A stretch of 64,000 nt of DNA from the NCBI RefSeq assembly GCF_028714215.1, contig NZ_JAQTMS010000011.1, positions 41,743-105,742 of the forward strand. Direction: 5' to 3'. Position 1 is the stretch's first letter. Every line of letters starts with the position of its first letter. Source of the DNA: Rhodoferax sp. GTDB taxonomy: Bacteria > Pseudomonadota > Gammaproteobacteria > Burkholderiales > Burkholderiaceae_C. Positions 1 to 14,059 of the stretch are shown here, piece after piece. Below the pieces are notes generated by a model that was not told the DNA's origin, searched no databases, and was given only the letters and a program-made list of their open reading frames with translations. The position numbers were made by a program, and so were the translations under genes.

Positions 1-701
1 CGCTGGCCGGCGCCGTGATCTGTCTGCTGGGCGGCGCCTTGAGCTTTCGCTACGGGCTCAAAGGTTCTTACTTTGCCCTGGTGACGCTGGCCTTTGCCGA
101 GGTCTTTCGCATTCTGGCGCTGTCGGTCCCCTTCACTGGCGCCGGCGTCGGACTGATGGTGCCTTTGCGCGAGGGTTTTGCCAATATGCAGTTCGATTCC
201 CGCCGCGGCTATGCGCTGTTGATTCTGGCCCTGGTGGTGCTGGCTTTGTCGGTCACCTGCTGGCTCCAGCATTCGCGCTTTGGCGCCTATTTGCAGGCCG
301 TGCGCGACAACGAGGACGCGGCCCGCGCCAGCGGGGTCAATCCATTTCGCACCAAGCTCGGTGCCATCGCGCTCTCGGGCGCATTCATGGCCGCCGGTGG
401 TGCCTTCTATGTTCAGGTCTTCCAGTACCTGGACCCCGGCATCGCCTATGGCGCGCAGACCTCGGTGGAAGCCCTGGTAGGCGCCATTGTGGGTGGCATG
501 GGCACCTTGTGGGGACCGGTCCTGGGGGCGCTGGCCCTGCATGCACTGGCCGACCTCACGCGCAACCTGTTTGGCCAGCTGCCCGGCATCAACATGGTGA
601 TCTACGGCAGCGTGCTGGTGCTGATGATCATGTTCGCGCCGCGCGGTCTGAGCGGCGCCGGCCAGAGCATCCGCGCCCTCTGGAAGGGCAAGGCGAAATG
701 A
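1..701 (+). CDS. livM: Branched-chain amino acid-type ABC permease, LivM family (5' truncated by window edge)
   Basis: C-terminal 232 residues of an inner-membrane permease of the LivM family; the reading frame is open from base 3, so the true start lies upstream of the window. Several hydrophobic segments are visible, as well as the family motif region around YLQAVRDNEDAARASGVN and the GGMGTLWGPVLGA stretch near the end, both typical of LivM. Liv permeases work as a LivH-LivM pair with two ATPases to import amino acids or, in Burkholderiales, very diverse amides, aromatic acids and dicarboxylates. The stop overlaps the next gene start in an ATGA, so translation is coupled to the ATPase. The periplasmic binding protein and LivH partner must lie upstream. 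The substrate cannot be read from the permease; the downstream catabolic genes suggest a cyclic amide or dicarboxylate. Confidence 0.9.
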   Translation, partial: LAGAVICLLGGALSFRYGLKGSYFALVTLAFAEVFRILALSVPFTGAGVGLMVPLREGFANMQFDSRRGYALLILALVVLALSVTCWLQHSRFGAYLQAVRDNEDAARASGVNPFRTKLGAIALSGAFMAAGGAFYVQVFQYLDPGIAYGAQTSVEALVGAIVGGMGTLWGPVLGALALHALADLTRNLFGQLPGINMVIYGSVLVLMIMFAPRGLSGAGQSIRALWKGKAK

Positions 702-1468
702 GCGCGCCCATGCTGCGGGTCAGCCATGTGTCGAAAAGTTTCGGCGGTCTCAGGGCCGTGCAAGACGTCAGCCTGGAGCTGGCGCAAGGCAGTCTGACGG
801 CACTGATTGGCCCCAACGGTGCCGGCAAGACCACGCTCTTTGCCCTGCTCTCGGGTTTTTATGTGCCGGACTCGGGACGCGTCGAGTTTGACGGTCGCGA
901 CATCACCGGCCAGGCACCCGATGCCAATGCGCGTGCCGGCCTGGCACGCACATTCCAGATCGTGCAGCCTTTTGCCGCGCAGACGGTGCGCGAAAACATC
1001 GCCGTTGGCGCGCATCTGCACCAGCCACGCCGCCTGGCGGCACTGGCAGCGGCGGAATACGTGGCGCAGAGGGTCGGCCTGACGGCCCAACTCGACAAAC
1101 CGGCGTCCCAGCTGACCGTGGCCGGGCGCAAGCGACTCGAACTGGCACGCGCCTTGGCCACGCGGCCCAAACTGCTGCTGCTCGACGAGGTGCTGGCGGG
1201 CCTGAACCCACAGGAAATCAGCGACATGATTCCCGTCGTGCGCGACATCGCGTTGTCGGGCGTGACAGTGCTGATGATCGAGCACGTGATGCAGGCTGTG
1301 ATGAACCTGGCCCAACACGTCTGGGTGCTGGCGCAGGGGCAACTGATCGCCCAGGGCTCGCCCGCCGAGGTGACCTCTGACGCAGCCGTCATCGAGGCTT
1401 ATCTGGGCCACGGCACGGCGGCCAAGCTGCGCAAGATGGCCATCCCGGCAACGCAGGCAACAGCATGA
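698..1468 (+). CDS. livG: ABC transporter ATP-binding protein, LivG family
   Basis: 256-residue ATPase of the Liv importer. Walker A GPNGAGKTT is near residue 38 and Walker B LLLLDEVLAGL near residue 168. The ABC signature is degenerate: the usual LSYGQQRRLE of LivG reads LTVAGRKRLE here, which still keeps the basic segment. The start ATG overlaps the stop of the permease by four bases, and the stop overlaps the start of the second ATPase in the same way, so the three transporter genes are translationally coupled. It energises import together with LivF. Family membership is clear from the length and the LivG-type Q-loop segment (ARTFQIVQPF). The substrate is unknown. Confidence 0.92.
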   Translation: MSAPMLRVSHVSKSFGGLRAVQDVSLELAQGSLTALIGPNGAGKTTLFALLSGFYVPDSGRVEFDGRDITGQAPDANARAGLARTFQIVQPFAAQTVRENIAVGAHLHQPRRLAALAAAEYVAQRVGLTAQLDKPASQLTVAGRKRLELARALATRPKLLLLDEVLAGLNPQEISDMIPVVRDIALSGVTVLMIEHVMQAVMNLAQHVWVLAQGQLIAQGSPAEVTSDAAVIEAYLGHGTAAKLRKMAIPATQATA

Positions 1469-2175
1469 CGGCACTGCTTGACATCCAGGGTTTGCGCGGC
1501 GGTTACGGCGCGGTGGAAGTGCTGCGCGGCGTGGACCTGCATGTGAACGAGGGCGAGATTGTGGCCTTGCTGGGCAGCAATGGCGCGGGTAAATCGACTC
1601 TCAACAATGTGCTGTGCGGCATTTATCCAGCCTGGGGCGGAAGCGTGCAGTTTGACGGGCACAATTTGACTGGCGCGCATTACCGTGAGGTGGTCAAGGC
1701 CGGACTGATCCAGGTGCCCGAGGGGCGCAAGATATTTCCCAACCTGTCAGCGCTGGAAAACCTGGAGCTCGGTTCTTTCACGCGTGCGCGCCAACGCCGT
1801 GCGCAAAATCTGGAACGCGTGTTCGCCCATTTCCCGCGCCTCAAGGAGCGCCGCACACAATTGGCCGGCACCATGAGCGGCGGCGAACAGCAGATGCTGG
1901 CGATCGGGCGCGGCTTGATGGCCGAGCCGCGTTTGCTGATCCTCGATGAACCCTCCCTGGGTCTGTCGCCTTTGCTGGTGGAGGAGTTGTTTGCCCTGAT
2001 CGCCCAACTCAACGCGCAAGGGCTGGCGGTGTTGCTGGTCGAGCAGAACGTGGGCCAGTCGCTGGAAGTGGCGCAGCGCGCTTATGTGCTGGAGAACGGG
2101 GCGCTGCGTTTCTCCGGCTCCAGTGCGGACTTGCTGGCCAGCGACGCGTTGCGTCGCAGCTACCTGGGTGTTTGA
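1465..2175 (+). CDS. livF: ABC transporter ATP-binding protein, LivF family
   Basis: 236-residue second ATPase of the Liv importer. Walker A GSNGAGKST near residue 38, the LivF-type Q loop QVPEGRKIFPNLS, the signature MSGGEQQMLAIGRGL near residue 135 and Walker B LLILDEPSLGL are all intact. It overlaps livG by four bases and its TGA shares two bases with the ATG of the following hydro-lyase (TGATG), so the transporter and the catabolic genes are one translational unit. This coupling is the main reason to assign the importer to the same pathway as the downstream enzymes. Unlike LivG beside it, its signature motif is canonical. Confidence 0.93.
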   Translation: MTALLDIQGLRGGYGAVEVLRGVDLHVNEGEIVALLGSNGAGKSTLNNVLCGIYPAWGGSVQFDGHNLTGAHYREVVKAGLIQVPEGRKIFPNLSALENLELGSFTRARQRRAQNLERVFAHFPRLKERRTQLAGTMSGGEQQMLAIGRGLMAEPRLLILDEPSLGLSPLLVEELFALIAQLNAQGLAVLLVEQNVGQSLEVAQRAYVLENGALRFSGSSADLLASDALRRSYLGV

Positions 2176-3449
2176 TGAAACCGCAATCACTGGCCCAGAA
2201 GATCATTGCCCGCGCCGCCGGACAGGCGTCGGTGCGGGTCGGCGAGATCGTCACCTGCCAGGTCGATCTGGCCATGTTCCACGACTCGTCCGGGCCGCGC
2301 CGCCTGAAACCCATGCTGGAAGAATTGGGCGCGCAAATCTGGGACAAGTCCAAGGTGGTGCTGGTGCTGGACCACTACGTGCCAGAGCGCGACGACGCGG
2401 CGCGGCGCATCGTGCGCATCGCACGCGACTGGGCACAGGAGCAACAGCTGCCCCACGTCTATGACAGCCAGGGCATCTGCCATGTGGTGGTGCCGCAGCA
2501 CGGCCACCTTCAGCCCGGCATGTTTTGCGTCGGCGGCGACTCGCACTCGCCCACCGGAGGAGCCTTCGGCGCCTACATGTTCGGCATCGGCAGCACCGAG
2601 ATGCTGGGTGTGGTGGTGACGGGCGAGATCTGGCTGCGGGTGCCGCAAACCATCGCCATGCACTGGTCCGGGCGGCTTGCCAGCGGCGTCTGCGCGAAAG
2701 ACATGATGCTGTCGCTGGTGGCCCGCTTTGGCATGAACGGCGCCAACTACCAGGCCGTGGAATTCACGGGCAGCACAGTCCGGGCCTTGTCGATGCAGGA
2801 TCGCATGACGCTTTGCAACATGAGCGCCGAACTGGGCGCGCAAACCGCCCTGGTGGCGCCTGACGAGGTGACGCGGCAATGGCTTGAACAAACCGGTGTG
2901 GCGCCATCCCCCGCCGGACCGGATTGGGCGGCGTGGACATCCTACCCCGGCAGTTTTGACGTCCAACACGACTTCGATGCCAGCACGCTCAGCCCGCAAC
3001 TGGCCGCGCCGCACAGCCCGGCGCTGGGCGTGCCGATTACGGAGCATGCCGAGACACGCATAGACGTGGCTTACATCGGCGCCTGCACCGGCGCCAAACT
3101 TGAAGACCTGCGTTTTGCCGCCCAGGTGCTGCGCGGCCGCAAAGTGGCCAGCGGCGTTCGGCTGCTGGTGGCACCGGCCAGCCTGAAGGATCGTGCGCAG
3201 GCCGAGAGGGAGGGCACGCTGCGGGCGCTGACCGACGCCGGCGCCAGCCTGTTGCCCAGTGCCTGCGGGGCCTGTGCCGGCTATGGCGACAGCTTTGCCG
3301 ACGGCCAGACCGTGATCTCCAGCACGGCGCGCAACTTCAAGGGCCGCATGGGACCGGCCAGCACCCAGGTCTTTCTGGGCTCGGCTTATACCGTGGCGGC
3401 ATCTGCCTTGCGCGGCCGCATCACGGACCCGCGGACGGTGTTGCCATGA
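2175..3449 (+). CDS. Aconitase-family hydro-lyase, large subunit (LeuC/dimethylmaleate hydratase large-subunit-like)
   Basis: 424-residue large subunit of a two-subunit aconitase-superfamily (de)hydratase. The three cysteine ligands of a 4Fe-4S cluster are visible: one in YIGACTGAK (about residue 300) and two in SACGACAGYGD (about residue 360). The GGDSHSPTGGAFGAY segment is the family substrate/cluster loop. Members include isopropylmalate isomerase LeuC, homoaconitase, and dimethylmaleate hydratase DmdA of nicotinate fermentation. The gene sits among catabolic and transport genes rather than with leuB or leuA, which argues against leucine synthesis. The ATG at 2175 is preferred over an in-frame TTG one codon earlier because it gives the TGATG overlap with livF. 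Expected reaction: reversible hydration of an unsaturated di- or tricarboxylate. Confidence 0.88.
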   Translation: MKPQSLAQKIIARAAGQASVRVGEIVTCQVDLAMFHDSSGPRRLKPMLEELGAQIWDKSKVVLVLDHYVPERDDAARRIVRIARDWAQEQQLPHVYDSQGICHVVVPQHGHLQPGMFCVGGDSHSPTGGAFGAYMFGIGSTEMLGVVVTGEIWLRVPQTIAMHWSGRLASGVCAKDMMLSLVARFGMNGANYQAVEFTGSTVRALSMQDRMTLCNMSAELGAQTALVAPDEVTRQWLEQTGVAPSPAGPDWAAWTSYPGSFDVQHDFDASTLSPQLAAPHSPALGVPITEHAETRIDVAYIGACTGAKLEDLRFAAQVLRGRKVASGVRLLVAPASLKDRAQAEREGTLRALTDAGASLLPSACGACAGYGDSFADGQTVISSTARNFKGRMGPASTQVFLGSAYTVAASALRGRITDPRTVLP

Positions 3450-4012
3450 ACTCAGCCACAACGCCTGCCACGGTGTGGCACAAAATCTGGCGTCTGGGTG
3501 ACGATGTGGACACCGACGCGCTGGCACCCGGCGCCTACATGCAGCACGGCATTGAGGTGATCGCCCAGCACTGTCTGGAGCATCTGCTGCCGACATTTGC
3601 AGCTGAGGTGCGCTCCGGTGACGTGATCGTGGCCGGCGCCAATTTCGGCATTGGCTCCTCGCGCGAGCAGGCTGCCGCGGTGTTGGTGCAGCTGGGTGTG
3701 GCGGCCGTGATCGCGCCCAGTTATGGCGGCTTGTTCTTCCGCAATGCTTTCAACCTCGGTTTGCTCTTGCTGACCTGTCCGCAGCTTGATCTGCTGAAAG
3801 ATGAAGAGCAACTTTGCATTGAGGCGCCTGCCATGTCTCTGCTAGGCCCCTCCGGCAAGCAAGTGGCATGCGAGCCGGTACCCGAATTCCTGCTGCGGAT
3901 GGCGCGCGCCGGCGGTTTGATGGCCAGCCTGAAGCAAGGACTCAGGCCCGGCCTTCCAAGCAGCAGCATCAAGCTGAGTGAATCTGAAACTTTTGTCAAG
4001 GAGAAAACATGA
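3446..4012 (+). CDS. Aconitase-family hydro-lyase, small subunit (LeuD/DmdB-like)
   Basis: 188-residue swivelling-domain subunit that partners the large subunit just upstream, with which it overlaps by ATGA. The family features are present: the N-terminal GDDVDTDALAPG segment (about residue 18) and the GANFGIGSSREQAA motif (about residue 68), whose serine and arginine contact substrate in LeuD-type subunits. The last 30 residues, rich in serine, lysine and glutamate, run beyond the usual small-subunit core. The stop overlaps the amidohydrolase start by four bases. With the large subunit it should form a [4Fe-4S] hydratase of the isopropylmalate isomerase/dimethylmaleate hydratase type; the natural substrate is inferred only from context. 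Confidence 0.87.
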   Translation: MNSATTPATVWHKIWRLGDDVDTDALAPGAYMQHGIEVIAQHCLEHLLPTFAAEVRSGDVIVAGANFGIGSSREQAAAVLVQLGVAAVIAPSYGGLFFRNAFNLGLLLLTCPQLDLLKDEEQLCIEAPAMSLLGPSGKQVACEPVPEFLLRMARAGGLMASLKQGLRPGLPSSSIKLSESETFVKEKT

Positions 4013-5481
4013 GCAAACCCGAATTTGACCTGATCATCAAGAACGTGCGTGTCGTGCGTCCGCATGGCAATGTGGTGCATGAGGCCGACATTGCCATCAA
4101 GGACGGCAAGGTGGCCAGGGTCGCCCCCGGCATCGACGTTGGCCGCGCCAAGGCGCTGCACGAGGGCAAGGGCCGGCTGGCCTTTCCGGGCGTGGTCGAT
4201 GCGCACATGCACAGCGGCATCTACTCGCCGCTGGCCGAAGACGCCGTGTCCGAGAGCAAGGCGGCGGCCATCGGCGGCGTCACCTCCAGTCTGAACTACT
4301 TTCGCACCGGGCAGTACTACCTGAACAAGGGCGGCCCCTACCGGAAGTTCTACCCCGAGGTGCTGAAAACCGCCAAAGGACGCTTTCATGTGGACTATGG
4401 TTTTCACCTGGCACCGATGGACGGCACGCACATCAAGGAGATTCCGGAACTGATCGAGAAGTACGGTGTTTCGAGCTTCAAGATCTTCATGTTTTATGGC
4501 TCGCACGGCTTGCATGGGGCGTCGGACGCGCAGCGCGACTTCCTGATGATAGGCAAGGACGAGCGCTACGACTACGCGCACTTCGAGTTCATCATGCGCG
4601 GCGTGCAAGCGGCGCGCGAACAATTTCCGGAGCAGGCCCGGCAGATCTCCCTCTCGCTGCACTGCGAGACCGCCGAGGTGATGACGGCCTATACCAAGAT
4701 TGTCGAGAAAGATAAATCGCTCAGGGGTCTGGCCGCCTACAGTGCCTCGCGGCCCCAGCACTCGGAAGGTCTGGCGGTCTTCATTGCCAGCTATCTGGCC
4801 AACGAAACCGCGCTGCCCAACATCAACCTGCTGCACCTGTCCTCGCGCAAGGCGGTGCAGGCAGCGCTGATGATGGCCGATGTCTTCCCGCACATCGACT
4901 TCAAGCGCGAGGTGACGATTGGCCATTTGATGCTGGACATCAACTCCAAGGCGGCCGAACTGGCCAAGGTGAATCCACCCATCCGTCCGCGCGAAGATGT
5001 TGAATTTTTGTGGGAAGCACTGCTGGCCGGTGAACTGGACTGGGTTGTCAGCGACCACGCCTGCTGCCGCCACGAGATGAAAATCCCGAAGCATTATTTC
5101 GGCAACATCTGGATGGCCAAGAGCGGCTTCGGCGGCACCGAATACCTGCTGCCGGCACTGATCAGCGAAGGCACGCGCCGCGGCATGGGCTACAACCACA
5201 TGGCGCGCGTGACCAGCTGGAACCCGGCGCAGCGCTACGGCCTGAATCGCAAAGGCGATATTGCCGAAGGCTTCGACGCCGACATTGCGCTGGTGGACCC
5301 GGCGAAGAGCTGGACCATAGCGGCGAAGAATTCGCCTTCAACCCAGGGCTACACGCCATTCGAAGGGCTGGAGATGTCGGCCCGCGTGGAAGCCACCTTC
5401 CTGCGCGGCCAACTCATCTGCCAGGACGGGCAGGTGCTTGGCAAGGCGCGCGGCGAATACCTGTTCCGCCCGACCGCCTGA
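4009..5481 (+). CDS. Dihydroorotase/hydantoinase-like cyclic amidohydrolase
   Basis: 490-residue metal-dependent amidohydrolase of the dihydroorotase/dihydropyrimidinase group. All expected metal ligands can be placed: HMH at residues 66-68 (DAHMHSG), a likely carboxylated lysine K158 (SSFKIFMFY), H218 (SLHCET), H276 (LLHLSS) and D349 (VVSDHACC). Such enzymes hydrolyse cyclic amides or imides such as hydantoins, dihydropyrimidines or dihydroorotate; the enamidase of nicotinate fermentation is a more distant relative. A good Shine-Dalgarno (AAGGAG) precedes the ATG, which also overlaps the previous stop. No pyrimidine genes are nearby, so a catabolic ring-opening role is inferred. The exact ring substrate is not predictable from sequence. 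Confidence 0.88.
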   Translation: MSKPEFDLIIKNVRVVRPHGNVVHEADIAIKDGKVARVAPGIDVGRAKALHEGKGRLAFPGVVDAHMHSGIYSPLAEDAVSESKAAAIGGVTSSLNYFRTGQYYLNKGGPYRKFYPEVLKTAKGRFHVDYGFHLAPMDGTHIKEIPELIEKYGVSSFKIFMFYGSHGLHGASDAQRDFLMIGKDERYDYAHFEFIMRGVQAAREQFPEQARQISLSLHCETAEVMTAYTKIVEKDKSLRGLAAYSASRPQHSEGLAVFIASYLANETALPNINLLHLSSRKAVQAALMMADVFPHIDFKREVTIGHLMLDINSKAAELAKVNPPIRPREDVEFLWEALLAGELDWVVSDHACCRHEMKIPKHYFGNIWMAKSGFGGTEYLLPALISEGTRRGMGYNHMARVTSWNPAQRYGLNRKGDIAEGFDADIALVDPAKSWTIAAKNSPSTQGYTPFEGLEMSARVEATFLRGQLICQDGQVLGKARGEYLFRPTA

Positions 5482-5487
5482 CCGCCG

Positions 5488-6894
5488 ATGACACCCACCC
5501 TCGTTAGCGGGTCCTTGCCGCCAGACACGCCGCACGTTCCTGTGGCCGTCGTCGGCGCCGGCGCCTGCGGCCTGACGGCGGCGCTGATGCTGTCGGATGC
5601 GGGTGTGGATTGCGTGCTGCTGGAGCGCGACGCCGCACCCAGTGGCTCCACCGCCCTGTCATCCGGCTTCATTCCGGCGGCCGGCACCCAAGTGCAGCAA
5701 GCGCAAGGCATTGAGGACAGCCCGGCGCGCTTCGCCGCCGACATCCAGGGCAAGGCGCATGACACAGCGGCAACCCATCTGGTCGCTGCGTATACCGAGG
5801 CGATAGTACCCGCCGTCGATGCGCTGCAATCAAGGCACGGCATCGATTTTGTCGTGCTGGACGGATTTCTCTACCCCGGTCACAGCAGACTCAGAATGCA
5901 CGCCGTGCCGGAGAAAACCGGCGTCGGCCTGATGACGCGGCTGCAAATGGCGGCGACCCGCGCCGATCTGCCGGTCATCACCGATGCGCTGGTACGCCAG
6001 CTTTGGTTCGATGGCGGCGATCCAGTACACAAGGTACGCGGCGTCAGCTACCAGCGCCCGGATGGCACGCTGGAGCATCTGTCCTGCGATGTCCTGCTGC
6101 TGGCCTGCAACGGCTTTGGCGGCAACGCTGAAATGGTGCGCGAGCTTTTGCCCGAAATGCGCGACGCCACCTTTGCCGGCCACAGCGGCAACGATGGCAG
6201 CGCCATCGCCTGGGGCAAGGCCCTTGGCGCCCAACTGGCCGATCTGGGCGGCTACCAGGGCCACGGCTCCTGGGCCGTGCCGCAGGGTGCCCTTATTTCC
6301 TGGGCTTTGATGATGGAAGGCGGGGTGCAGATCAACGCTGCCGGTCAGCGCTTTCATGACGAAACCCAGGGCTACTCGGAAGCCTCGGTCAAAGTGCTGG
6401 CACAGCCCGGCAAGCTGGCCTGGAATGTCTTTGACGCGCCGCTGCTGGAACTGGCGCACAGCTTTCCGGACTTCTGCGAAGCGCAAGCCGCCGGTGCCGT
6501 CAGAACCTGTGCCGACGCAGCGGCACTGGCCCGTCTGTTGGGCTGCGATTTGGAAGTGCTTGGCAAAACACTGGCATCCATCAGCGCCGGCGCGGTCAGT
6601 GCCGACGGCCGCACTTTCAGGCGCGCGCTGCAAGCGCCGTATTACGCCGTCAAGGTCACCGGCGCCTTGTTTCACACCCAGGGCGGGCTGGCCATTGATG
6701 CCCGGTGCCGCGTCTTGCGCGACGATGGCTCGGCGCTGCCCAACCTGCTGGCCGCAGGCGGCGCGGCGCGCGGCGTCTCGGGCAATGCGGTCTGGGGCTA
6801 CCTGTCCGGCAACGGCTTGTTGAGCGCCGTCGCCGGCGGCTATATCGCGGCGCAAACCGCGTCCCTCATTCTCAAAGCAACTTTACCCCCATGA
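5488..6894 (+). CDS. FAD-dependent oxidoreductase of the fumarate reductase/3-oxosteroid dehydrogenase family
   Basis: 468-residue soluble flavoprotein. The N-terminal Rossmann FAD motif VVGAGACGLTAAL begins near residue 20, followed by the PSGSTALSSG loop typical of fumarate-reductase-type flavoproteins, and the C-terminal FHTQGGLAID and GAARGVSGNAVWGY segments of the same family. No haem domain, signal peptide or membrane segment is present, so it resembles tricarballylate dehydrogenase or ketosteroid dehydrogenase more than periplasmic flavocytochrome c. Expected chemistry is introduction or reduction of a C=C bond next to a carbonyl or carboxylate. It lies six bases after the amidohydrolase and overlaps the next gene by ATGA. 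In this operon it could supply the unsaturated acid that the aconitase-like pair hydrates. Confidence 0.85.
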   Translation: MTPTLVSGSLPPDTPHVPVAVVGAGACGLTAALMLSDAGVDCVLLERDAAPSGSTALSSGFIPAAGTQVQQAQGIEDSPARFAADIQGKAHDTAATHLVAAYTEAIVPAVDALQSRHGIDFVVLDGFLYPGHSRLRMHAVPEKTGVGLMTRLQMAATRADLPVITDALVRQLWFDGGDPVHKVRGVSYQRPDGTLEHLSCDVLLLACNGFGGNAEMVRELLPEMRDATFAGHSGNDGSAIAWGKALGAQLADLGGYQGHGSWAVPQGALISWALMMEGGVQINAAGQRFHDETQGYSEASVKVLAQPGKLAWNVFDAPLLELAHSFPDFCEAQAAGAVRTCADAAALARLLGCDLEVLGKTLASISAGAVSADGRTFRRALQAPYYAVKVTGALFHTQGGLAIDARCRVLRDDGSALPNLLAAGGAARGVSGNAVWGYLSGNGLLSAVAGGYIAAQTASLILKATLPP

Positions 6895-7763
6895 CTGAAC
6901 CGCTGACCTTTCGCCGCCGACTGGCGCAAGCTGGCATTGTGCTGGCGCCCGGTGTTTACGATGCCCTGAGCGCACTGCTGGCGGAGCAGGCCGGCTTCGA
7001 GGCGCTTTACCTGTCGGGTGCGTCCATCGCCTACACGCGACTGGGTCGCTCGGACGTCGGCCTGACCACTTATTCGGAGCTGGTCGACACCCTGGCCCAC
7101 ATTACCGAGCGGGTCAGTCTGCCGGTGATCGTCGATGCCGACACCGGTTTTGGCAACGCCCTGAACGTGATGCGCACGGTCAGGGGGCTTGAACGCGCCG
7201 GCGCCGCCATGATTCAGCTGGAGGATCAAACCTTTCCCAAGCGCTGTGGTCATCTCGATGGCAAGACGCTGGTGCCGACAGCGGAGATGGTGGGCAAACT
7301 CAAGGCCGCGCTGGACGCCCGCGGCAACGCCAACACCTTGATCCTGGCCCGCACCGATGCCGTTGCCGTGGAGGGGCTGGAGGCCGCCTTTGAGCGTGCG
7401 CAAGCCTATCTGGAATGTGGCGTCGATGCCTTGTTCATCGAAGCCTTGCAAACGCCGGCGCAAATGGACGCCGCTTGCCAGCGCTTCGCCGGCCGCGTTC
7501 CTCTGTTGGCCAATATGGTGGAAGGTGGCAAGACGCCGCTGCAAAGTGCCCCGGAGCTGCAAGCCAGAGGCTTTCGCATCGCCATCTTTCCGGGCGGCAC
7601 GGCGCGCGCCGTGGCGCATACCCTGCAAGCCTACTACGCCAATCTGCACCTGCATCAGACCACCAGCGGCTGGAGGGACAAGATGCTGGACTTCGACGGC
7701 CTCAACAAAGTCATTGGCACCAGCGAACTGTTCGCCACCGGCAAGCGCTACCAGGCACCGTGA
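6891..7763 (+). CDS. Isocitrate lyase/PEP mutase-family C-C lyase (dimethylmalate/methylisocitrate lyase-like)
   Basis: 290-residue TIM-barrel enzyme. It carries the gating-loop motif KRCGH (residues 117-121), metal-binding D-A-D near residue 82 and E111 in QLEDQ. The cysteine-containing CGH loop is the mark of lyases in this superfamily (methylisocitrate lyase, 2,3-dimethylmalate lyase) rather than of PEP mutase itself. Expected reaction: retro-aldol cleavage of a 2-hydroxy dicarboxylate, giving pyruvate or glyoxylate and a shorter acid. The ATG overlaps the flavoprotein stop in an ATGA; an open frame extends further upstream but only inside the flavoprotein gene. No methylcitrate synthase (prpC) accompanies it, which argues against propionate metabolism. 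Confidence 0.87.
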   Translation: MTEPLTFRRRLAQAGIVLAPGVYDALSALLAEQAGFEALYLSGASIAYTRLGRSDVGLTTYSELVDTLAHITERVSLPVIVDADTGFGNALNVMRTVRGLERAGAAMIQLEDQTFPKRCGHLDGKTLVPTAEMVGKLKAALDARGNANTLILARTDAVAVEGLEAAFERAQAYLECGVDALFIEALQTPAQMDAACQRFAGRVPLLANMVEGGKTPLQSAPELQARGFRIAIFPGGTARAVAHTLQAYYANLHLHQTTSGWRDKMLDFDGLNKVIGTSELFATGKRYQAP

Positions 7764-7815
7764 CGCCGGCTGCTTGCCGGTGACGGCGTGGCTGCGAAAT
7801 GCGGAACAATGCGCC

Positions 7816-8988
7816 ATGCCCCAAGAACTTGTTGATCTCGCCGGCGCCCAGCCCGGGCACGCCCTGCGCCACCACTGGACGCTGGAGCCGTCCATGCATT
7901 TCTTGAATCACGGATCGTTCGGCGCGACGCCCAAATACGTGCTGACGGCGCAGGACGCATGGCGCGCCAGGCTGGAGCGTCAACCGGTAAGGTTCATGAG
8001 CAGCGAACTGCCCGATGCACTGCGCGCCACCCGTGAGCGGCTGGCGGCGTTTCTGGCAACTTCGGCCGAGCGTCTGGCGCTGGTGGAGAATGCCACCGAC
8101 GCCGTCAATGCGGTGTTGCGCTCCTTTGCGTGGCGCAGCGGCGACGAAATTGTGCTGGCCGACCACGCTTATCTGGCGGTTCGCCATACGGTCAGCTTTC
8201 TGGCCCAGCGCCACGGCCTGGTGGTGAAGCTGGCGCAAATTCCGTTTCCACTGTCCGGCGGACAAGCCATCACCGACGCCTACTGCGAGGCCATCACGGC
8301 GCGCACCCGGCTGGTCATCGTGGACCACATTTTTTCCACGCTGGCGCTGCAAACGCCGGTGGCCGACATCGTGGCTTTTTGCCAGCCCCTGGGCGTCCGG
8401 GTGCTGGTCGATGGCGCGCATGCCCCGGGGCTGCTGCCTTTGCAGCTCGATGCCCTGGGCGCTGACTGGTACACCGGCAACTGCCACAAGTGGCTGCTGG
8501 CGCCCAAGGGTTGTGCTTTTTTATATGCTTCGCCAACCGCCGCCGCCAGCTTGCATCCCACGGTGATTTCGAACTTTCATGAACAAGGGTTCCCGCGGGA
8601 ATTTGACTGGCAGGGCACGCGCGACTACAGCGGCTGGCTGGCGATCCCGGCCGCGCTGGATTTTCTGGGCGCCTTCGGTATCGAACGTTATCGAAGCGTC
8701 TTGTGCCAGCAAGCCAGCGCCGCCGCCCGGCTGCTGAGCGAACACTGGCAAACCGCCCTGCCGGCGCCGATGGAACTGTTTTCCGCGATGGTGACCCTGG
8801 CGCTGCCCGGCGACCCGGAGGCGAGCGACGAAATGGCCCGCCGTTGGCATGACCGCTTATGGCAGCAACACCGGATCGAGGTGCCGGTGCTGGCCTTCAA
8901 GCAACGACTGTGGGTGCGTATTTCGGCGCAGATCTACAACGAACTGCCCGACTACGAAGCCCTGGCCCGGGCGGTCCGGCCGGACTGA
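7816..8988 (+). CDS. Class V aminotransferase, isopenicillin N epimerase-like
   Basis: 390-residue PLP enzyme of fold type I, class V. Recognisable features are FLNHGSFGATPK near the N-terminus, NATDAVNAVLRS, the VDGAHAPG motif with the aspartate that contacts the PLP ring nitrogen, and the Schiff-base lysine in GNCHKWLLAPKG. The group includes isopenicillin N epimerase-like proteins, cysteine desulfurase relatives and kynureninase relatives, most of them without known substrates. It follows the lyase after 52 bases on the same strand and is probably the last gene of the operon, but it is not translationally coupled, so its part in the pathway is less certain. The ATG at 7816 is the first that gives a normal class V N-terminus. 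Confidence 0.85.
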   Translation: MPQELVDLAGAQPGHALRHHWTLEPSMHFLNHGSFGATPKYVLTAQDAWRARLERQPVRFMSSELPDALRATRERLAAFLATSAERLALVENATDAVNAVLRSFAWRSGDEIVLADHAYLAVRHTVSFLAQRHGLVVKLAQIPFPLSGGQAITDAYCEAITARTRLVIVDHIFSTLALQTPVADIVAFCQPLGVRVLVDGAHAPGLLPLQLDALGADWYTGNCHKWLLAPKGCAFLYASPTAAASLHPTVISNFHEQGFPREFDWQGTRDYSGWLAIPAALDFLGAFGIERYRSVLCQQASAAARLLSEHWQTALPAPMELFSAMVTLALPGDPEASDEMARRWHDRLWQQHRIEVPVLAFKQRLWVRISAQIYNELPDYEALARAVRPD

Positions 8989-9014
8989 ACGATCCTCGCA
9001 AAGCGCCTTCGTGG

Positions 9015-9353
9015 TTAGCAGGCTGGTGGCTGCGGGCTGTTGGTCTCCAGCGGAACGAAGATCCACAGCAGCAGGTACAGCACGACGCCAATGCCGCCGG
9101 CCAGGAAGGTCAGCGCCAGCAACAGACGCCAGAGCCAGCTCTCCATGCCGGTGAAGGTGGCCAGTCCGCCGCAAACGCCGCCCAGCCAGCGGTCGGTGGC
9201 GGAGCGCCGCAGGTTGTTGATGGCGCTGATCCGGGGCGCCGGCGTCGCCGAGGATTGCAGCAGCCGGTTTTTGGCCTGCGCGAACTCGGCCTCGCTCAGG
9301 GTGCCGCGCTGGTGCATTTGTTCCAGTTGGGCCAGTTCTTCAGACAAATTCAT
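9015..9353 (-). CDS. SHOCT/PspC domain membrane protein
   Basis: 112-residue protein. Residues 1-35 (LSEELAQLEQMHQRGTLSEA) form a SHOCT-like helix pair. Residues 50-105 form a PspC domain: the basic-glycine segment DRWLGGVCGGLATFTG, then two hydrophobic stretches that likely span the inner membrane. PspC-domain proteins take part in membrane-stress responses, but a stand-alone PspC with no pspA or pspB nearby cannot be assigned to the Psp system. It is convergent with the aminotransferase gene, separated by 26 bases. Confident as a gene and domain call, not as to role. Confidence 0.85.
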   Translation of the reverse strand: MNLSEELAQLEQMHQRGTLSEAEFAQAKNRLLQSSATPAPRISAINNLRRSATDRWLGGVCGGLATFTGMESWLWRLLLALTFLAGGIGVVLYLLLWIFVPLETNSPQPPAC

Positions 9354-9575
9354 GACGTGCTCCGTGCAGTGAAAAATGCGGCACCCTCCGAATCCCGCCT
9401 GCCGTCACAGCGAGCGCCCAAGACGGTGCCGCGTGGACCGGTCTTGATGGGCGAAGAATACGCGCCCGCGCGCCATTGCGCCAGATGCATCCGGCCCACT
9501 GCAGGGTTTGGCGGGTCAAGCGCCGTTGGCGCGCCATGGTTTACAGTGCCACCCGAGAGCCAGCACGCTTCGATT

Positions 9576-9596
9576 GCCTGGCGGACCCCGCCAGGC
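9576..9596 (+). promoter_or_regulatory. Perfect hairpin in the leader just upstream of pssA
   Basis: GCCTGGCGG and CCGCCAGGC form a perfect nine-base-pair stem with a three-base loop, six bases before the Shine-Dalgarno AGGAGA and 20 bases before the ATG. No T tract follows, so it is not an intrinsic terminator. A role in mRNA stability or translation is only a guess. Confidence 0.35.
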
Positions 9597-9616
9597 GCTA
9601 CCAGGAGACCCATGTC

Positions 9617-10243
9617 ATGCCCACGCCCCCCACCCGCAAACCCTTTGCCATGATTCGGGAATTCCACCTGGCCGACTGGTTCACGCTGGGCAACGCGGTG
9701 TCCGGCACCGGGGCCTTGTTTTCCATCATGAGCTATCTGCAGACCGCCGACGTCCTGCACATCTACCTGGCCTGCGCCCTGATCCTGGCGGCTTTGATTT
9801 TTGACGTGCTGGACGGGCGCATTGCGCGTTGGCGGCAAAAATCATCGGCCCTGGGGCGCGAGCTCGATTCCCTGGCCGACGTCATTTCCTTTGGCGTGGC
9901 ACCGGCCCTGATAGCCTACGGATGCGGCATGCAAGGCTTTTACGACCGCATCGTGCTGGGCTATTTTGTCGCCTGCGGTGTCTCCCGTCTGGCGCGTTAC
10001 AACGTGACTGCCGAGGAGCTGTCCGGTGGCACCGGCAAGGTGCAGTACTTCGAGGGCACGCCGATACCGACCTCGTTCGTTCTGGTCTGCCTGCTGGCTG
10101 TTGCCGCCTGGTTCGGGGCCGTCGGTGAAGACCTGTGGCTGGGCCGGCTGCTGCTGGGTGGCTTCACGCTGCACCCGCTGGTCCTGTTGTTTGCACTGTC
10201 GGGCTCGCTCATGATCAGCCGCATCCGCATTCCCAAGCTGTAA
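9617..10243 (+). CDS. pssA: CDP-alcohol phosphatidyltransferase, phosphatidylserine synthase-like
   Basis: 208-residue integral membrane enzyme. The CDP-alcohol phosphotransferase signature DG-x2-AR-x8-G-x3-D-x3-D is complete in DGRIARWRQKSSALGREL followed by DSLAD (about residues 65-87). Several hydrophobic helices follow. The small size and the segment GGTGKVQYFEGTPIP match the membrane-embedded (type II) phosphatidylserine synthase group, which joins CDP-diacylglycerol and serine in phosphatidylethanolamine synthesis; a related phosphatidyltransferase cannot be fully excluded. The ATG at 9617 is chosen because AGGAGA lies eight bases before it; the frame is open further upstream. The next gene also acts on membrane phospholipids. 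Confidence 0.82.
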   Translation: MPTPPTRKPFAMIREFHLADWFTLGNAVSGTGALFSIMSYLQTADVLHIYLACALILAALIFDVLDGRIARWRQKSSALGRELDSLADVISFGVAPALIAYGCGMQGFYDRIVLGYFVACGVSRLARYNVTAEELSGGTGKVQYFEGTPIPTSFVLVCLLAVAAWFGAVGEDLWLGRLLLGGFTLHPLVLLFALSGSLMISRIRIPKL

Positions 10244-10256
10244 GCCCCGGGAGCGA

Positions 10257-10284
10257 CGGGCAAGCGTTGCCCGGCCGATTTTTT
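10257..10284 (+). terminator. Possible intrinsic terminator after pssA
   Basis: A seven-base-pair stem (CGGGCAA / TTGCCCG, loop GCG) begins 14 bases after the pssA stop, followed after a short gap by six T residues. The five-base gap between stem and T tract makes it a weak candidate. Confidence 0.4.
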
Positions 10285-10422
10285 GCTATATATTTGACTG
10301 CCTGCGACACAGTCGCACCAGCCCCCGGCGCCAGGGGCCTAGGGACCGGAAACATGCCGAGTGAACCGGTCGCCACCAAAGAGCGCCTGCCTTTTGTACA
10401 GCCTGATCGGGGAGGACCTGCG

Positions 10423-11676
10423 ATGCCTGTGATCGATTCGTTGTTGGAGCGCAAGCTCGAGGGCTTGACACTCCCGCTTGCGCTACTGCTGCCGGACGGC
10501 CGTCGCATCGGAGCGGCCGACGCGGCGGTCACGATCCGGCTGAAACAGCTCTCGGCGCTGGCCCACATCGCTTCCGGCGACGTCGGCAAGGTGGCGCAGG
10601 ACTACGTCGAGGACAAGCTCGATTTCGACGGCAGCGTGCGCGACCTGATGGTGATCGCCTCGCAGATGATAGGTTCCGACCCGACCCGCGAAACGAACGG
10701 CAATGCCACGCTGGCCTGGTGGCGCGAGATCCGGCTCAATGCCCGCTCGCGCGCGCGCCACCTGGTGCACCTGGATGCGCAGCAGATTCAATTCCATTAC
10801 GACGTGTCGGATGCCTTCTACGCGCTCTGGCTGGACCCCGCGCGCCTGTACTCCTGCGCCTACTTCGGCGATGCCGACATGACGCTGGCGCAGGCCCAGC
10901 AGGCCAAGCTGGACCACATCTGCCGCAAGCTGATGCTGCGCTCGGGCGAGCGCTTTCTCGACATCGGCGCCGGCTGGGGCGGCCTGCTGCTGTGGGCGGC
11001 CGAGCATTACGGCGTGCAGGCGCACGGCATCACGCTGAGCCGCAACCAGCATGAGCACGTGAACCGGCTGATCGAGGCGCGTGGCCTGCAGGGGCGCGTG
11101 ACGATGGCGTTGCGCGACTACCGCGACCTGCCGGAGGGCGAGCCCTACGACAAGATCGCCTCGGTGGGCATGTTCGAGCATGTCGGCCGAGCCCAGCTGT
11201 CGACTTATTTTGCGAAGATTTACCGCCTGCTCAAGCCGGCCGGTCTGCTGCTCAACCACGGCATCACCGCCGCCCGCAGCGACACCCACCAGCTCGGCGC
11301 CGGCATGGGCGATTTCATCGAACGCTACATTTTCCCGGGCGGCGAGCTGATCCATGTGTCCAAGGTGACCGAGGTGATGAGCGACGCGCAGTTCGAGCCG
11401 CTCGACCTGGAGAACCTCAGGCCGCACTACGCGCGCACCCTATGGGCCTGGAGCGATGCGCTGGAAGCGCGCCTGGCGCAGGCGCGCGAGCTGACGCGCG
11501 AGAACGTGGTGCGCGCCTACCGCGTCTACCTGGCCGGCAGTGCCATGGGTTTCGAGCAGGGCTGGATGAGCCTGTTCCAGATGCTGGCGGCACGCCCCGA
11601 CGGCCAGCTGGCGTTGCACGCCATGCCTGGCGCACAATCGCAATATCCGTTCAACCGCCGGTACATCTACGCTTGA
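10423..11676 (+). CDS. cfa: Cyclopropane-fatty-acyl-phospholipid synthase
   Basis: 417-residue SAM-dependent methyltransferase that adds a methylene bridge across double bonds of phospholipid acyl chains at the membrane. The SAM-binding motif FLDIGAGWGGLLLWAAEHYG lies near residue 182, with EHVGRAQLSTYF and the C-terminal YRVYLAGSAMGFEQG segment typical of the family. Length matches the family. The start at 10423 is supported by GGGGAGG about eight bases upstream; an in-frame ATG at 10354 has a poorer site. It follows pssA on the same strand after a possible terminator and precedes a YbhB gene. Regulation by stationary-phase or acid stress is known for the family but not visible here. Confidence 0.9.
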   Translation: MPVIDSLLERKLEGLTLPLALLLPDGRRIGAADAAVTIRLKQLSALAHIASGDVGKVAQDYVEDKLDFDGSVRDLMVIASQMIGSDPTRETNGNATLAWWREIRLNARSRARHLVHLDAQQIQFHYDVSDAFYALWLDPARLYSCAYFGDADMTLAQAQQAKLDHICRKLMLRSGERFLDIGAGWGGLLLWAAEHYGVQAHGITLSRNQHEHVNRLIEARGLQGRVTMALRDYRDLPEGEPYDKIASVGMFEHVGRAQLSTYFAKIYRLLKPAGLLLNHGITAARSDTHQLGAGMGDFIERYIFPGGELIHVSKVTEVMSDAQFEPLDLENLRPHYARTLWAWSDALEARLAQARELTRENVVRAYRVYLAGSAMGFEQGWMSLFQMLAARPDGQLALHAMPGAQSQYPFNRRYIYA

Positions 11677-11699
11677 TCCGGCATAAGGAGCAAACAGTC

Positions 11700-12335
11700 A
11701 TGAAACTGTGGAGCAACAACTGGTCCGATGGGGCACGTATTCCGGCGCGCTTTGCTGCCGGCAAACTGGACGTGCAGAGCGGCGTCACCTTCTCCGATAA
11801 CGTCAACCCGCATCTGGCCTGGAGCGAGCTGCCGCCGGGCACCCGGTCGTTGGCGCTGATCTGCCACGACTTCAATGTGCCCAGCCGTGGTGACGATGTA
11901 AACCAGCCCGACCGCGAGGTGCCGGCCGACCTGCCGCGGGTCGACTTCTTCCATTGGGTGATGGTCGATCTGCCGGCCACGCTGAGCGAGATCGCCGAGG
12001 GCCAGTTCAGCCGCGGCTTCACCGCGCGCGGCAAGCCGGGGCCGGCGGTGGCGGCGCTGGCGGGCGCGCGCCACGGCCTGAACGACTACACCGGCTGGTT
12101 CGCCGGCGATGCCCAGATGGCCGGCCAGTACTTCGGCTACGACGGGCCGTTCCCGCCGTTCAACGATTCGCTGATCCACCACTACGTGTTCACGCTGTTC
12201 GCGCTGGCGGTGGCGCGCGCGCCGGTCGACGGTGCGTTCACCGGCGCGCAAGTGCGCGCCGCGATCCGCCCGCACGTCCTGGCCGAGGCCACGCACAGCG
12301 GCACCTACACCTTGAACAAACGCCTGATGGGCTGA
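11700..12335 (+). CDS. YbhB/YbcL family Raf kinase inhibitor-like protein
   Basis: 211-residue protein of the phosphatidylethanolamine-binding fold. Visible family segments are NVNPHLAWSELPPGTRSLAL, DFFHWVMVDLPA, and a GYDGPFPPFNDSLIHHYVFT segment that corresponds to the GPCPP...HRY ligand-pocket motif. No signal peptide is seen, so it is likely cytoplasmic. The ATG at 11700 follows ATAAGGAGC at good spacing and starts 23 bases after cfa, suggesting cotranscription. Function of bacterial YbhB proteins is unknown. It is convergent with the acid-CoA ligase gene at 12353. Confidence 0.85.
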   Translation: MKLWSNNWSDGARIPARFAAGKLDVQSGVTFSDNVNPHLAWSELPPGTRSLALICHDFNVPSRGDDVNQPDREVPADLPRVDFFHWVMVDLPATLSEIAEGQFSRGFTARGKPGPAVAALAGARHGLNDYTGWFAGDAQMAGQYFGYDGPFPPFNDSLIHHYVFTLFALAVARAPVDGAFTGAQVRAAIRPHVLAEATHSGTYTLNKRLMG

Positions 12336-12352
12336 CCCCGGCTACGGCCGGT

Positions 12353-14059
12353 TCACAAGGCGAGCCATTGGCCACTGACCCGGTCGAAGACGTCGGTCGG
12401 GGCGCCATCGGCTGCCTGCACTATCAGGTGCTTGGCGATCTTGTTGGACGAGGTGCGGGGGAACTCCCTGACAAACTGCAGGTAGCGCGGCACCTTGAAG
12501 GGCGCCAAGCCGTTGCGGCAATGCGCGAACAAGCGCTCAGGCGGCAGGATGTCGGCGGCGGAGCGGCCACCGGCCAGCAGATCGGCTTGCAGTTGAATCA
12601 TGATCTTGACCTCTTCCTGGCGCACCGGATCGGGCACTGCCACCGCCGCGCAGTCGAAAACCTCTGCCAGTTCCCGCACCACGGCCTCCACCTCGCGCGC
12701 CGCAATGTTCTCGTTGGAGCGGCGAATCATGTCCTTGAAACGCCCCACGATGCGGTAAAAGCCGTCTGCATCGCACACAAAGGCGTCGCCAGTGCGAAAC
12801 CAGGGCCCATCGAACGCGGCCTGGTTGGCTTCAGGTTTGTTGAAATAGCCCTTGAATAAATGTTCGCCACGAATCTGCAACTCGCCGGCCACGCCGGGGC
12901 CCACCGGCTGGCCCGCGCCGTCCACGATCCGCGCTTCGCGCCGCAGTGCCGCCAGGCCCACCGAGACCGGCTTGGCGGCTGACGGGTAGCCTTGCGGCAT
13001 GGTCAGGCCCAGGCCGATCTCGGTCATGCCGAAGGACTCGATGGCCGGAACCTTGAAGCGCTGCTCGAACAGCTGCCTGGATTCAGCGCTCCAACCGAAG
13101 GTGAAGACCTGGCGCAAGTCAAGCTGGCGTCCGTCCACGCTGGAGAGGAACTTCAGCGCCAGTTCGGGCAGTTGCGCCCACTCGACACGGTGATCGGCCA
13201 GCCAGCCCAGAAATTTGCTGGCGCTGATCTTGTAGGCCGCAATCAGCGTTCCACCCGACATGGCCGCCATCAGCAACTGCCAGAACGGGTCCATGTAAAA
13301 GAAGGGTTGGGCCGTGAAAAAGCGCCGCATCGCTGCCTGCCCGGCCTTGGGCGCGGGACACATCAGGCAGGCGCCTTGCGCCAGGTTGAGCCAGTAGCCA
13401 TGCGTCAACAGGCAGCCCTTGGGAAAACCGGTGGTGCCCGAGGTGTACTGGATATTGGCCAGCGTCTCCAGCCCCGACTCGGCAGCCTGAAACAGTGCCT
13501 CGCTGCCGGCGCCGGCACGCTCCATCAGCGCCTGCCAGGAGCAAGGGTCGCCCAGGCGCGGCGCGGCGGCCCAGACCCGGTCGCGCGGCAACTGCGCCGG
13601 CCACTGCGCCAGTTGGTCCAGCACCGCCATGCGCTCGCTGCCCAGCACCCAGGCACCGACCTGGGCATCGGCCAGCACGTATTCAAGTTCACGCGCCGTG
13701 TAGCTTGGATTGACCGGGACCACGGCGGCCCCCAGCTTGAGCACCGCCAGCCAGGTCACATGCCATTGCAGGCAGTTGGGCAGCATGACGGCCACCCGCA
13801 TGCCGGCCCCGACACCGGCGGTGCGCAAGCCGATCGCCAGCCGCGTGCTCAGGGCATCGAACTGGGCGTAGGTAATTTGCTGGCCGTCCTCGAACAGATC
13901 GATCAGCAGCTGCTCCGGCCTGGCCCGGGTCAATTGCGCGAACAGGGCCGGAATGCTGGTCGGCAGCGGCTGCTGCGCGGCCGCGCGCAGGCGCGATTGC
14001 CATTGCGCCACGATCGGGTCGGCGGCGCTGTTGGTGCTGGGGGTCAGGTTTTCAGGCAT
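12353..14059 (-). CDS. AMP-dependent acid-CoA ligase
   Basis: 568-residue acyl-adenylate-forming enzyme. The P-loop motif YTSGTTGFPKG is near residue 207, SFGMTEIGLG is the A5-type motif, and FRTGDAFVCDADGFYRIVGRFKD holds the hinge; the C-terminal catalytic lysine region TSSNKIAKH is present. It activates a carboxylic acid to its CoA thioester with ATP. Last gene of a five-gene operon with an ABC importer and an enoyl-CoA hydratase; the gap to the hydratase is six bases. The acid is unknown. The operon logic (import, CoA activation, hydration) suggests degradation of an external carboxylate; a crotonobetaine/carnitine-CoA ligase-like activity is possible but not shown. Confidence 0.88.
   Translation of the reverse strand: MPENLTPSTNSAADPIVAQWQSRLRAAAQQPLPTSIPALFAQLTRARPEQLLIDLFEDGQQITYAQFDALSTRLAIGLRTAGVGAGMRVAVMLPNCLQWHVTWLAVLKLGAAVVPVNPSYTARELEYVLADAQVGAWVLGSERMAVLDQLAQWPAQLPRDRVWAAAPRLGDPCSWQALMERAGAGSEALFQAAESGLETLANIQYTSGTTGFPKGCLLTHGYWLNLAQGACLMCPAPKAGQAAMRRFFTAQPFFYMDPFWQLLMAAMSGGTLIAAYKISASKFLGWLADHRVEWAQLPELALKFLSSVDGRQLDLRQVFTFGWSAESRQLFEQRFKVPAIESFGMTEIGLGLTMPQGYPSAAKPVSVGLAALRREARIVDGAGQPVGPGVAGELQIRGEHLFKGYFNKPEANQAAFDGPWFRTGDAFVCDADGFYRIVGRFKDMIRRSNENIAAREVEAVVRELAEVFDCAAVAVPDPVRQEEVKIMIQLQADLLAGGRSAADILPPERLFAHCRNGLAPFKVPRYLQFVREFPRTSSNKIAKHLIVQAADGAPTDVFDRVSGQWLAL

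Follow-up and report, generated by a model that had tools for sequence, protein, structure and literature searches.

An eleven-gene operon of Rhodoferax sp. that probably serves the catabolism of an imported cyclic amide

The window analyzed here is a 64,000-nucleotide stretch (C11:41743-105742; loci, genomes and contigs are cited by L, G and C numbers) of the 5.16-Mb draft genome of Rhodoferax sp. Its first eight genes belong to an 11-gene unit that starts 3.2 kb upstream of the window and codes for a GntR regulator, a binding protein, the transporter components LivHMGF, a LeuCD-like hydro-lyase, the cyclic amidohydrolase AmiH, a flavoprotein and a lyase with a CGH motif. The unit is probably an operon through which one cyclic amide is taken up and broken down, with all of its reactions predicted from sequence. 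The proposal draws on gene order, protein families, catalytic residues, conservation and the exchange of parts between genomes.

In the proposed pathway the compound would be imported by the LIV-type ATP-binding cassette (ABC) transporter, and its ring would be opened by AmiH or, in relatives, by HyuAB together with an isochorismatase-family hydrolase. That second hydrolase, or an unlinked one, would strip off ammonia or carbamate and leave a vicinal dicarboxylate. The flavin adenine dinucleotide (FAD) protein would form or remove a C=C bond, either ahead of ring opening or following it, the LeuCD-like [4Fe-4S] enzyme would hydrate the C=C bond to a 2-hydroxy dicarboxylate, and the lyase would cut this in retro-aldol fashion to a 2-oxo acid and a carboxylic acid. 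The operon would be regulated by GntR.

Searches of 299 genomes of the family (thresholds of E ≤ 1e-120 for AmiH, 1e-100 for LeuC and 1e-80 for the lyase) placed AmiH in 12 genomes, LeuC in 33 and the lyase in 34. All 12 AmiH genomes also carried LeuC and the lyase (hypergeometric p 4e-13, genomes counted as independent of kinship), and LeuC and the lyase occurred together in 30 genomes (hypergeometric p 2e-33, relatedness ignored). The operon is accessory, since AmiH was not found at E ≤ 1e-120 in three further genomes sampled from its genus. Further out, AmiH was present in 3 of 229 genomes sampled from the class (1e-150) and 2 of 398 from the phylum (1e-110). A search for the same gene order across Burkholderiales had been proposed, and the operon does recur there, AmiH being accompanied by LeuC, LeuD and the lyase, each in most of 29 Burkholderiales-type loci (L019-L045, L048, L051; LeuC 24, LeuD 26, FAD protein 23, lyase 22, livF 21, binding protein 15, gntR 12). 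Contig ends account for many of the misses, and some appear to be genuine, e.g., that of the FAD protein in L031 and L040. Gene calls in relatives were mechanical, and false overlapping open reading frames (ORFs) masked some true genes; LeuC, LeuD, lyase, FAD, HyuA, HyuB, TctC and gntR were recounted by BLAST in L171-L190. Loci L008-L018 and L005 were omitted from the trees and the final residue counts (seven of the eleven, L008, L009 and L014-L018, visibly duplicate places of loci already taken in, and the remaining four were omitted along with them), and L109 and L110 stand outside all counts.

Other genomes have replacements for each of the parts, which supports the predicted sequence of ring opening, hydration and C-C cleavage. 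Of 18 genomes having LeuC and the lyase and no AmiH, 17 were used (G412 was omitted), and all 17 held LeuC, LeuD and the lyase within the examined stretch. In eight, the LIV genes, LeuC and LeuD were followed by the ATP-dependent HyuB-HyuA, a proposed ring opener, and then by an isochorismatase-family hydrolase, the FAD protein and the lyase (Pfam on L178 and L173). Seven had LeuC, LeuD and the lyase with a TctC-like gene (7/7) and a gntR-like gene (6/7) and gave no HyuAB, AmiH or FAD matches, while two (L175, L176) had an AtuA-family gene with LeuCD, the FAD protein and the lyase. The isochorismatase-family gene was present in 8/8 HyuAB units; its sole match in AmiH loci (E ≤ 1e-10) was 34% identical and on the opposite strand (L022). 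This exchange of AmiH for HyuAB plus an isochorismatase-family hydrolase, in which binding protein, LeuCD, flavoprotein and lyase stay, is a new observation.

The binding protein of the HyuAB units was 82–90% identical to that of the window's unit (seven of the eight units read) and that of AmiH units 80–91% (14 loci). Because these identities are alike in both unit types, the two forms probably import the same compound. LeuC and LeuD of the HyuAB units were 66–72% and 58–65% identical to those of the window. On the LeuC tree the AmiH label required eight changes (six forced by well-supported branches) and the Hyu label five (three forced); the lyase tree required eight (three forced) and five (one forced), respectively. 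HyuA scored best against caprolactamase and the isochorismatase-family hydrolase against RutB, both far below cut-off; the hydrolase was also weakly like biuret hydrolase.

AmiH keeps its binuclear metal ligands (H66, H68, K158, H218, H276, D349) and the active-site tyrosine Y163 in 80/80 loci at 55% identity or more. This set (HxH, Lys, His, His, Asp) is that of the hydantoinase/dihydropyrimidinase/allantoinase group, within which AmiH stayed below the curated cut-offs for allantoinase (218 vs 358), D-hydantoinase (189 vs 393) and the pyrC_multi dihydroorotase (175 vs 279). An NCBIfam match to the hydantoin-5-propionate hydrolase ErtD was rejected (178 vs a cut-off of 650). Where four of five aligned allantoinases and hydantoinases have E(T/S)CP(H/Q)Y and the fifth SGPQY, AmiH has EVTIGH. 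At least 120 database entries are 86% or more identical to the window AmiH and are named 'dihydroorotase family protein' or 'allantoinase'.

The LeuC-like subunit passed the cut-offs of NF001614 (509 vs 385) and TIGR01343 (401 vs 386) and failed those of TIGR02086 (395 vs 410) and of leuC, TIGR00170 (230 vs 560). The LeuD-like subunit failed TIGR00171 (47 vs 116) and passed TIGR02087, the model of the broad LeuD/DmdB family (142 vs 109 bits). The cluster cysteines Cys304, Cys364 and Cys367 of LeuC are kept in 41/41 loci at 51% identity or more, and GSSRE is present in all aligned LeuD sequences. A separate leuC-leuD-leuB set on C1 of the same genome passed all of its cut-offs (748 vs 560, 265 vs 116 and 496 vs 353), and the operon pair is not the only LeuCD of the genome. 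The original prediction of a dedicated catabolic operon with a non-leucine LeuCD is supported, as is placement of the operon pair, on its family scores, Fe-S cysteines and GSSRE motif, in the LeuCD/HACN/DmdAB hydro-lyase superfamily. The recognition loop of LeuD is unusual (PGAYMQHG in the window, mostly ..MKHG-like in relatives) and carries Lys or Gln at a position where homoaconitase has Arg. According to parts of one report, this loop of the small subunit sets substrate preference (PMC7308503).

In the lyase, K118-x-C120-G-H122 is kept in 44/44 loci at 57% identity or more, and so are the Mg-binding DxD and Arg (metal and substrate residues), which places the protein in the PEP mutase/isocitrate lyase superfamily. 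Its top-scoring model was the methylisocitrate lyase PrpB, yet under cut-off (298 vs 354). PDB relatives were methylisocitrate lyases, at up to 199 bits, and the 2,3-dimethylmalate lyase 3fa3, at 164 bits. One lyase match in another genome (G310:C2:215845-216702; L159, L176) has one in-frame TAA.

The nearest PDB sequences of the flavoprotein were fumarate and urocanate reductases. In the numbering of fumarate reductase, His365, Arg402 and His504 have their equivalents in 33/33 flavoproteins; the equivalent of Glu378 is Trp in 33/33, and that of Arg544, which holds the substrate carboxylate in fumarate reductases, is replaced by Tyr, so that the protein falls outside the fumarate reductase-like dicarboxylate flavoproteins. 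The equivalog cut-off of the tricarballylate dehydrogenase TcuA was also missed (100 vs 369). Given the substitutions at Arg544 and Glu378, a plain C4 dicarboxylate is probably not its substrate. Two AmiH units without a FAD match (L023, L031) were seen to carry an AMDase-like gene and, on the opposite strand, an aromatic-type flavin monooxygenase gene.

ORF reading and family models bore out the nine plus-strand ORFs at 1-8988 and their predicted families (Table 1). The overlaps described earlier were found: genes 1–8 meet in ATGA junctions (livM/livG 698, livG/livF 1465, LeuC/LeuD 3446, LeuD/AmiH 4009, FAD/lyase 6891), a TGATG at 2173-2177 (livF/LeuC) or a gap of 6 bases (AmiH/FAD). The ATG of the aminotransferase gene, at 7816, lies 52 bases downstream of the lyase gene. 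Upstream of livM on the same strand (L005 6802-9728) are gntR, the gene for the binding protein (L005 7631-8827) and livH. The binding protein is LIV-type, with Leu/Ile/Val-binding proteins as its nearest PDB sequences. A run of ten Ns inside livM (L005 9991-10000) immediately precedes window base 1. A promoter and terminator scan came out near chance level.

Table 1. Genes at the start of the window, with the assignments proposed for them and their basis
Feature	Position	Strand	Basis
livM-like permease	1..701	+	BPD_transp_2 92.8 bits; 5' part upstream of window edge
livG-like ABC ATPase	698..1468	+	ABC_tran + BCA_ABC_TP_C; ATGA overlap
livF-like ABC ATPase	1465..2175	+	Family match; ATGA overlap with livG
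LeuC-like large subunit, [4Fe-4S] hydro-lyase (aconitase/3-isopropylmalate dehydratase/homoaconitase family)	2175..3449	+	Profile scores, Cys residues
LeuD-like small subunit	3446..4012	+	GSSRE motif; TIGR02087
AmiH, cyclic amidohydrolase (dihydropyrimidinase/hydantoinase/allantoinase group), proposed ring opener	4009..5481	+	Family models, metal ligands
FAD protein, fumarate/urocanate reductase group; proposed C-C desaturase or reductase	5488..6894	+	FAD_binding_2
PEP mutase/isocitrate lyase superfamily lyase, KRCGH motif; proposed 2-hydroxy-dicarboxylate (alkylmalate-type) lyase	6891..7763	+	PEP_mutase 151 bits
Class V aminotransferase-fold protein, outside conserved operon	7816..8988	+	Aminotran_5 95 bits

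The ninth gene had been taken for a member of the operon, and no conservation alongside the lyase was found for it in the fetched loci (45 lyase orthologues, 37 of them with at least 2 kb downstream). It is not counted as a member because its sole match there at E ≤ 1e-5, in L033 (Ramlibacter pallidus), was 23% identical. Its scores to SufS, PvdN and EgtE were weak.

Distant AmiH relatives (62–64% identity) adjoin other versions of the later steps; family names in these loci often come from one scanned member per cluster. Loci L070, L072 and L076 hold a 3-hydroxy-3-methylglutaryl-CoA (HMG-CoA)-lyase-like gene, LeuC, LeuD, a CoA transferase III and AmiH, and L066 holds LeuC, LeuD, an HMG-CoA-lyase-like gene and a CoA transferase; the proteins of L072, L076 and L066 passed the HMG-CoA-lyase model. 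In L095, LeuC, LeuD, a transferase and AmiH lie on 4.3 kb. An HpcH/HpaI lyase (CitE/HpcH-like), HyuAB, LeuCD, a CoA transferase and AmiH occur in L068 and L088, the LeuC of L068 passing the hacA-family cut-offs and failing that of leuC. Alphaproteobacterial units (L061, L077, L084) have an importer, a lyase and AmiH, and in L061 a LeuC gene lies nearby. An amidase-like cluster (c19) was found in nine loci, with one copy nearest to formamidase/aliphatic amidase. On plasmid pDND3A of Rhodococcus gordoniae (L111; NZ_CP101468.1 118375-149817), the genes for a FAD protein, 38% identical to that of the window, AmiH and a CoA transferase adjoin MmgE/PrpD, cyclase and CoA ester lyase genes; HyuAB and an amidase are also present, and two MmgE/PrpD genes replace LeuCD. 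We propose that this locus would carry out the same steps with a largely different set of parts. No paper on R. gordoniae DND3 was among the open-access matches listed.

Other neighborhoods were seen besides. A family search placed a separate MmgE/PrpD and CoA transferase III cluster in the Rhodoferax genome itself (L194, C51:11000-28000, at about 5800-13200); by eye, CitE-like, acyl-CoA dehydrogenase, MaoC-like and TctC-like ORFs accompany it, and it resembles part of L111. Cyanobacterial AmiH homologues (L073, L074, L082, L086, L090, L093, L096, L098) adjoin a divergent Asp/Arg beta-hydroxylase-like gene (assigned from one scanned member); DUF4437, alcohol dehydrogenase, aldehyde dehydrogenase or amidase-like genes are often close by, and a LeuC-like gene was called in 0/8 of these loci. 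In five mostly gammaproteobacterial loci (L046, L056, L057, L059, L097), AmiH lies directly 3' of a FAD_binding_4 oxidase gene, of which the L059 copy has a distant likeness to 4-cresol dehydrogenase and other FAD oxidases.

As to the ring, a substituted imide of the succinimide or maleimide type is tentatively given a slight preference because its opening would directly yield the cis-dicarboxylate for LeuCD and the lyase. Ureides and lactams were kept as candidates because of the weak likenesses to RutB, biuret hydrolase and caprolactamase; a lactam seems rather unlikely, and a cyclic ureide is possible, if doubtful. From a hydantoin or dihydropyrimidine whose side chain bears a carboxyl group, AmiH or HyuAB would produce an N-carbamoyl acid, the isochorismatase-family hydrolase would remove the carbamoyl group, and the flavoprotein would deaminate or desaturate the acid before hydration and cleavage. 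AmiH is indeed nearest to allantoinases and hydantoinases, and HyuAB is accompanied by a RutB/biuret-hydrolase-like partner. A ureide by itself, however, yields no vicinal cis-dicarboxylate for LeuCD, the stretch shared by four of the five aligned allantoinases and hydantoinases is EVTIGH in AmiH, and no ureide pathway is known to us in which LeuCD and a CGH lyase take part.

A tetrapyrrole-derived substrate is possible because hematinic acid and maleimides have been reported from leaves and lake sediments. Parts of one paper state that hematinic acid was detected in leaves and that maleimides were not, and refer to earlier literature for both in senescent leaves and lake sediments (PMC7318184). 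A more specific idea is decidedly unlikely, namely that the operon, together with its swapped variants, represents a missing bacterial pathway for the alkylated imides that arise when chlorophyll and haem decay (hematinic acid and its dihydro form, alkyl maleimides). Ring opening would give 2-methyl-3-(carboxyethyl)maleate, a methyl homologue of homoaconitate. After its hydration by LeuCD, the PrpB-like lyase would release pyruvate and glutarate, and the flavoprotein would desaturate the succinimide form that stems from the reduced ring. Lys or Gln in the recognition loop of LeuD would suit a third carboxylate.

A repeat of the end of anaerobic nicotinate fermentation, in which dimethylmaleate hydratase and 2,3-dimethylmalate lyase lead to propionate and pyruvate, is unlikely. 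The LeuD score over the LeuD/DmdB cut-off and the presence of 3fa3 among the lyase relatives agree with it, but methylisocitrate lyases outscore 3fa3, and the LeuD likeness comes from a broad family model and not from DmdA, DmdB and Dml of Eubacterium barkeri. A housekeeping role, with LeuCD serving leucine synthesis or the lyase acting as PrpB of the 2-methylcitrate cycle, is highly improbable. Sequence kinship speaks for it, as does the lack of a second PrpB-like lyase in the genome, where just an isocitrate-lyase-like match was found. Leucine synthesis was ruled out by the true leuC-leuD-leuB on C1, and PrpB by score and context: the operon genes lie below the leuC, leuD and prpB cut-offs and are linked to an importer and ring openers in other genomes, and the sole MmgE/PrpD match adjoins a CoA transferase and a CitE-like ORF, with no prpC or prpB seen by eye among ORFs of at least 230 aa around it. 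That unrelated genes came together by chance is scarcely credible; it seems to apply to the ninth gene, but for genes 1–8 the conserved profile and order speak against chance. A citrazinate (isonicotinate) route, to which aconitase and isocitrate-lyase-like chemistry would be suited, was rejected, with no support found and nothing relevant among the open-access matches listed.

Several findings weigh against the preferred pathway of cyclic amide import, ring opening, hydration and cleavage. The window's own operon has no dedicated half-amide hydrolase, and the RutB and caprolactamase likenesses fit a ureide or lactam as well as an imide. The Arg544 equivalent of the flavoprotein is Tyr in 33/33, and no FAD match was found in 6 of the 29 AmiH-type loci (L023, L025, L027, L031, L038, L040), for some of them by contig ends. 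The FAD tree is compatible with one origin of each label, and in the tree of LeuC the loci L180, L181 and L189 sit on long branches. AmiH and HyuAB occur together in five distant clusters (L052, L068, L078, L088, L111) and are not strict alternatives. Among the 53 distant loci L046-L098 a LeuC-like gene was called in just 16, one of them (L089) coding for an 892-aa protein at 24% identity. The LeuC of L061 scores above the cut-off for true leuC (623 vs 560), and that of L066 passes two 3-isopropylmalate-dehydratase subfamily models; by these scores both may be leucine enzymes.

No account of the operon was found among the matches listed in searches of open-access literature. It marks a recurring pathway in which two unrelated ring-opening systems occupy one slot beside a nearly identical binding protein, so that the substrate can be sought via one protein. 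Were the substrate a tetrapyrrole-derived imide, the pathway would close a gap in how an abundant pigment is turned over; another N-heterocycle would still give a function to the group named 'dihydroorotase family protein' or 'allantoinase'.

The final part of anaerobic nicotinate fermentation employs enamidase, dimethylmaleate hydratase (DmdAB) and 2,3-dimethylmalate lyase. The operon resembles it in ring opening by the amidohydrolase superfamily and in a LeuCD-type hydro-lyase followed by a CGH lyase, and differs in its LIV importer, flavoprotein and hydantoinase-type amidohydrolase. The creatinine/N-methylhydantoin route has a HyuAB-type amidohydrolase and N-carbamoylsarcosine amidohydrolase, and the swapped operon form likewise combines HyuAB with an isochorismatase-fold hydrolase; here, however, flavoprotein, LeuCD and lyase come after the ring opener, none of which is, to our knowledge, part of the creatinine route. 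In the nicotinate pathway of Aspergillus nidulans, as described in parts of one paper, the cyclic imidase HxnM is followed by the amidase HxnN, so that a cyclic imide likewise becomes a half-amide before nitrogen is removed (PMC9304392). HxnM resembles HpPgdA/PuuE, of another fold group, and the steps shown in those parts include no LeuCD or lyase (PMC9304392). As in the lower part of the 2-methylcitrate cycle, where PrpB acts, the hydro-lyase product would be split by a homologous lyase, with an oxo acid and an acid as products, but the operon lyase scores below the prpB cut-off and stands with a ring opener and an importer.

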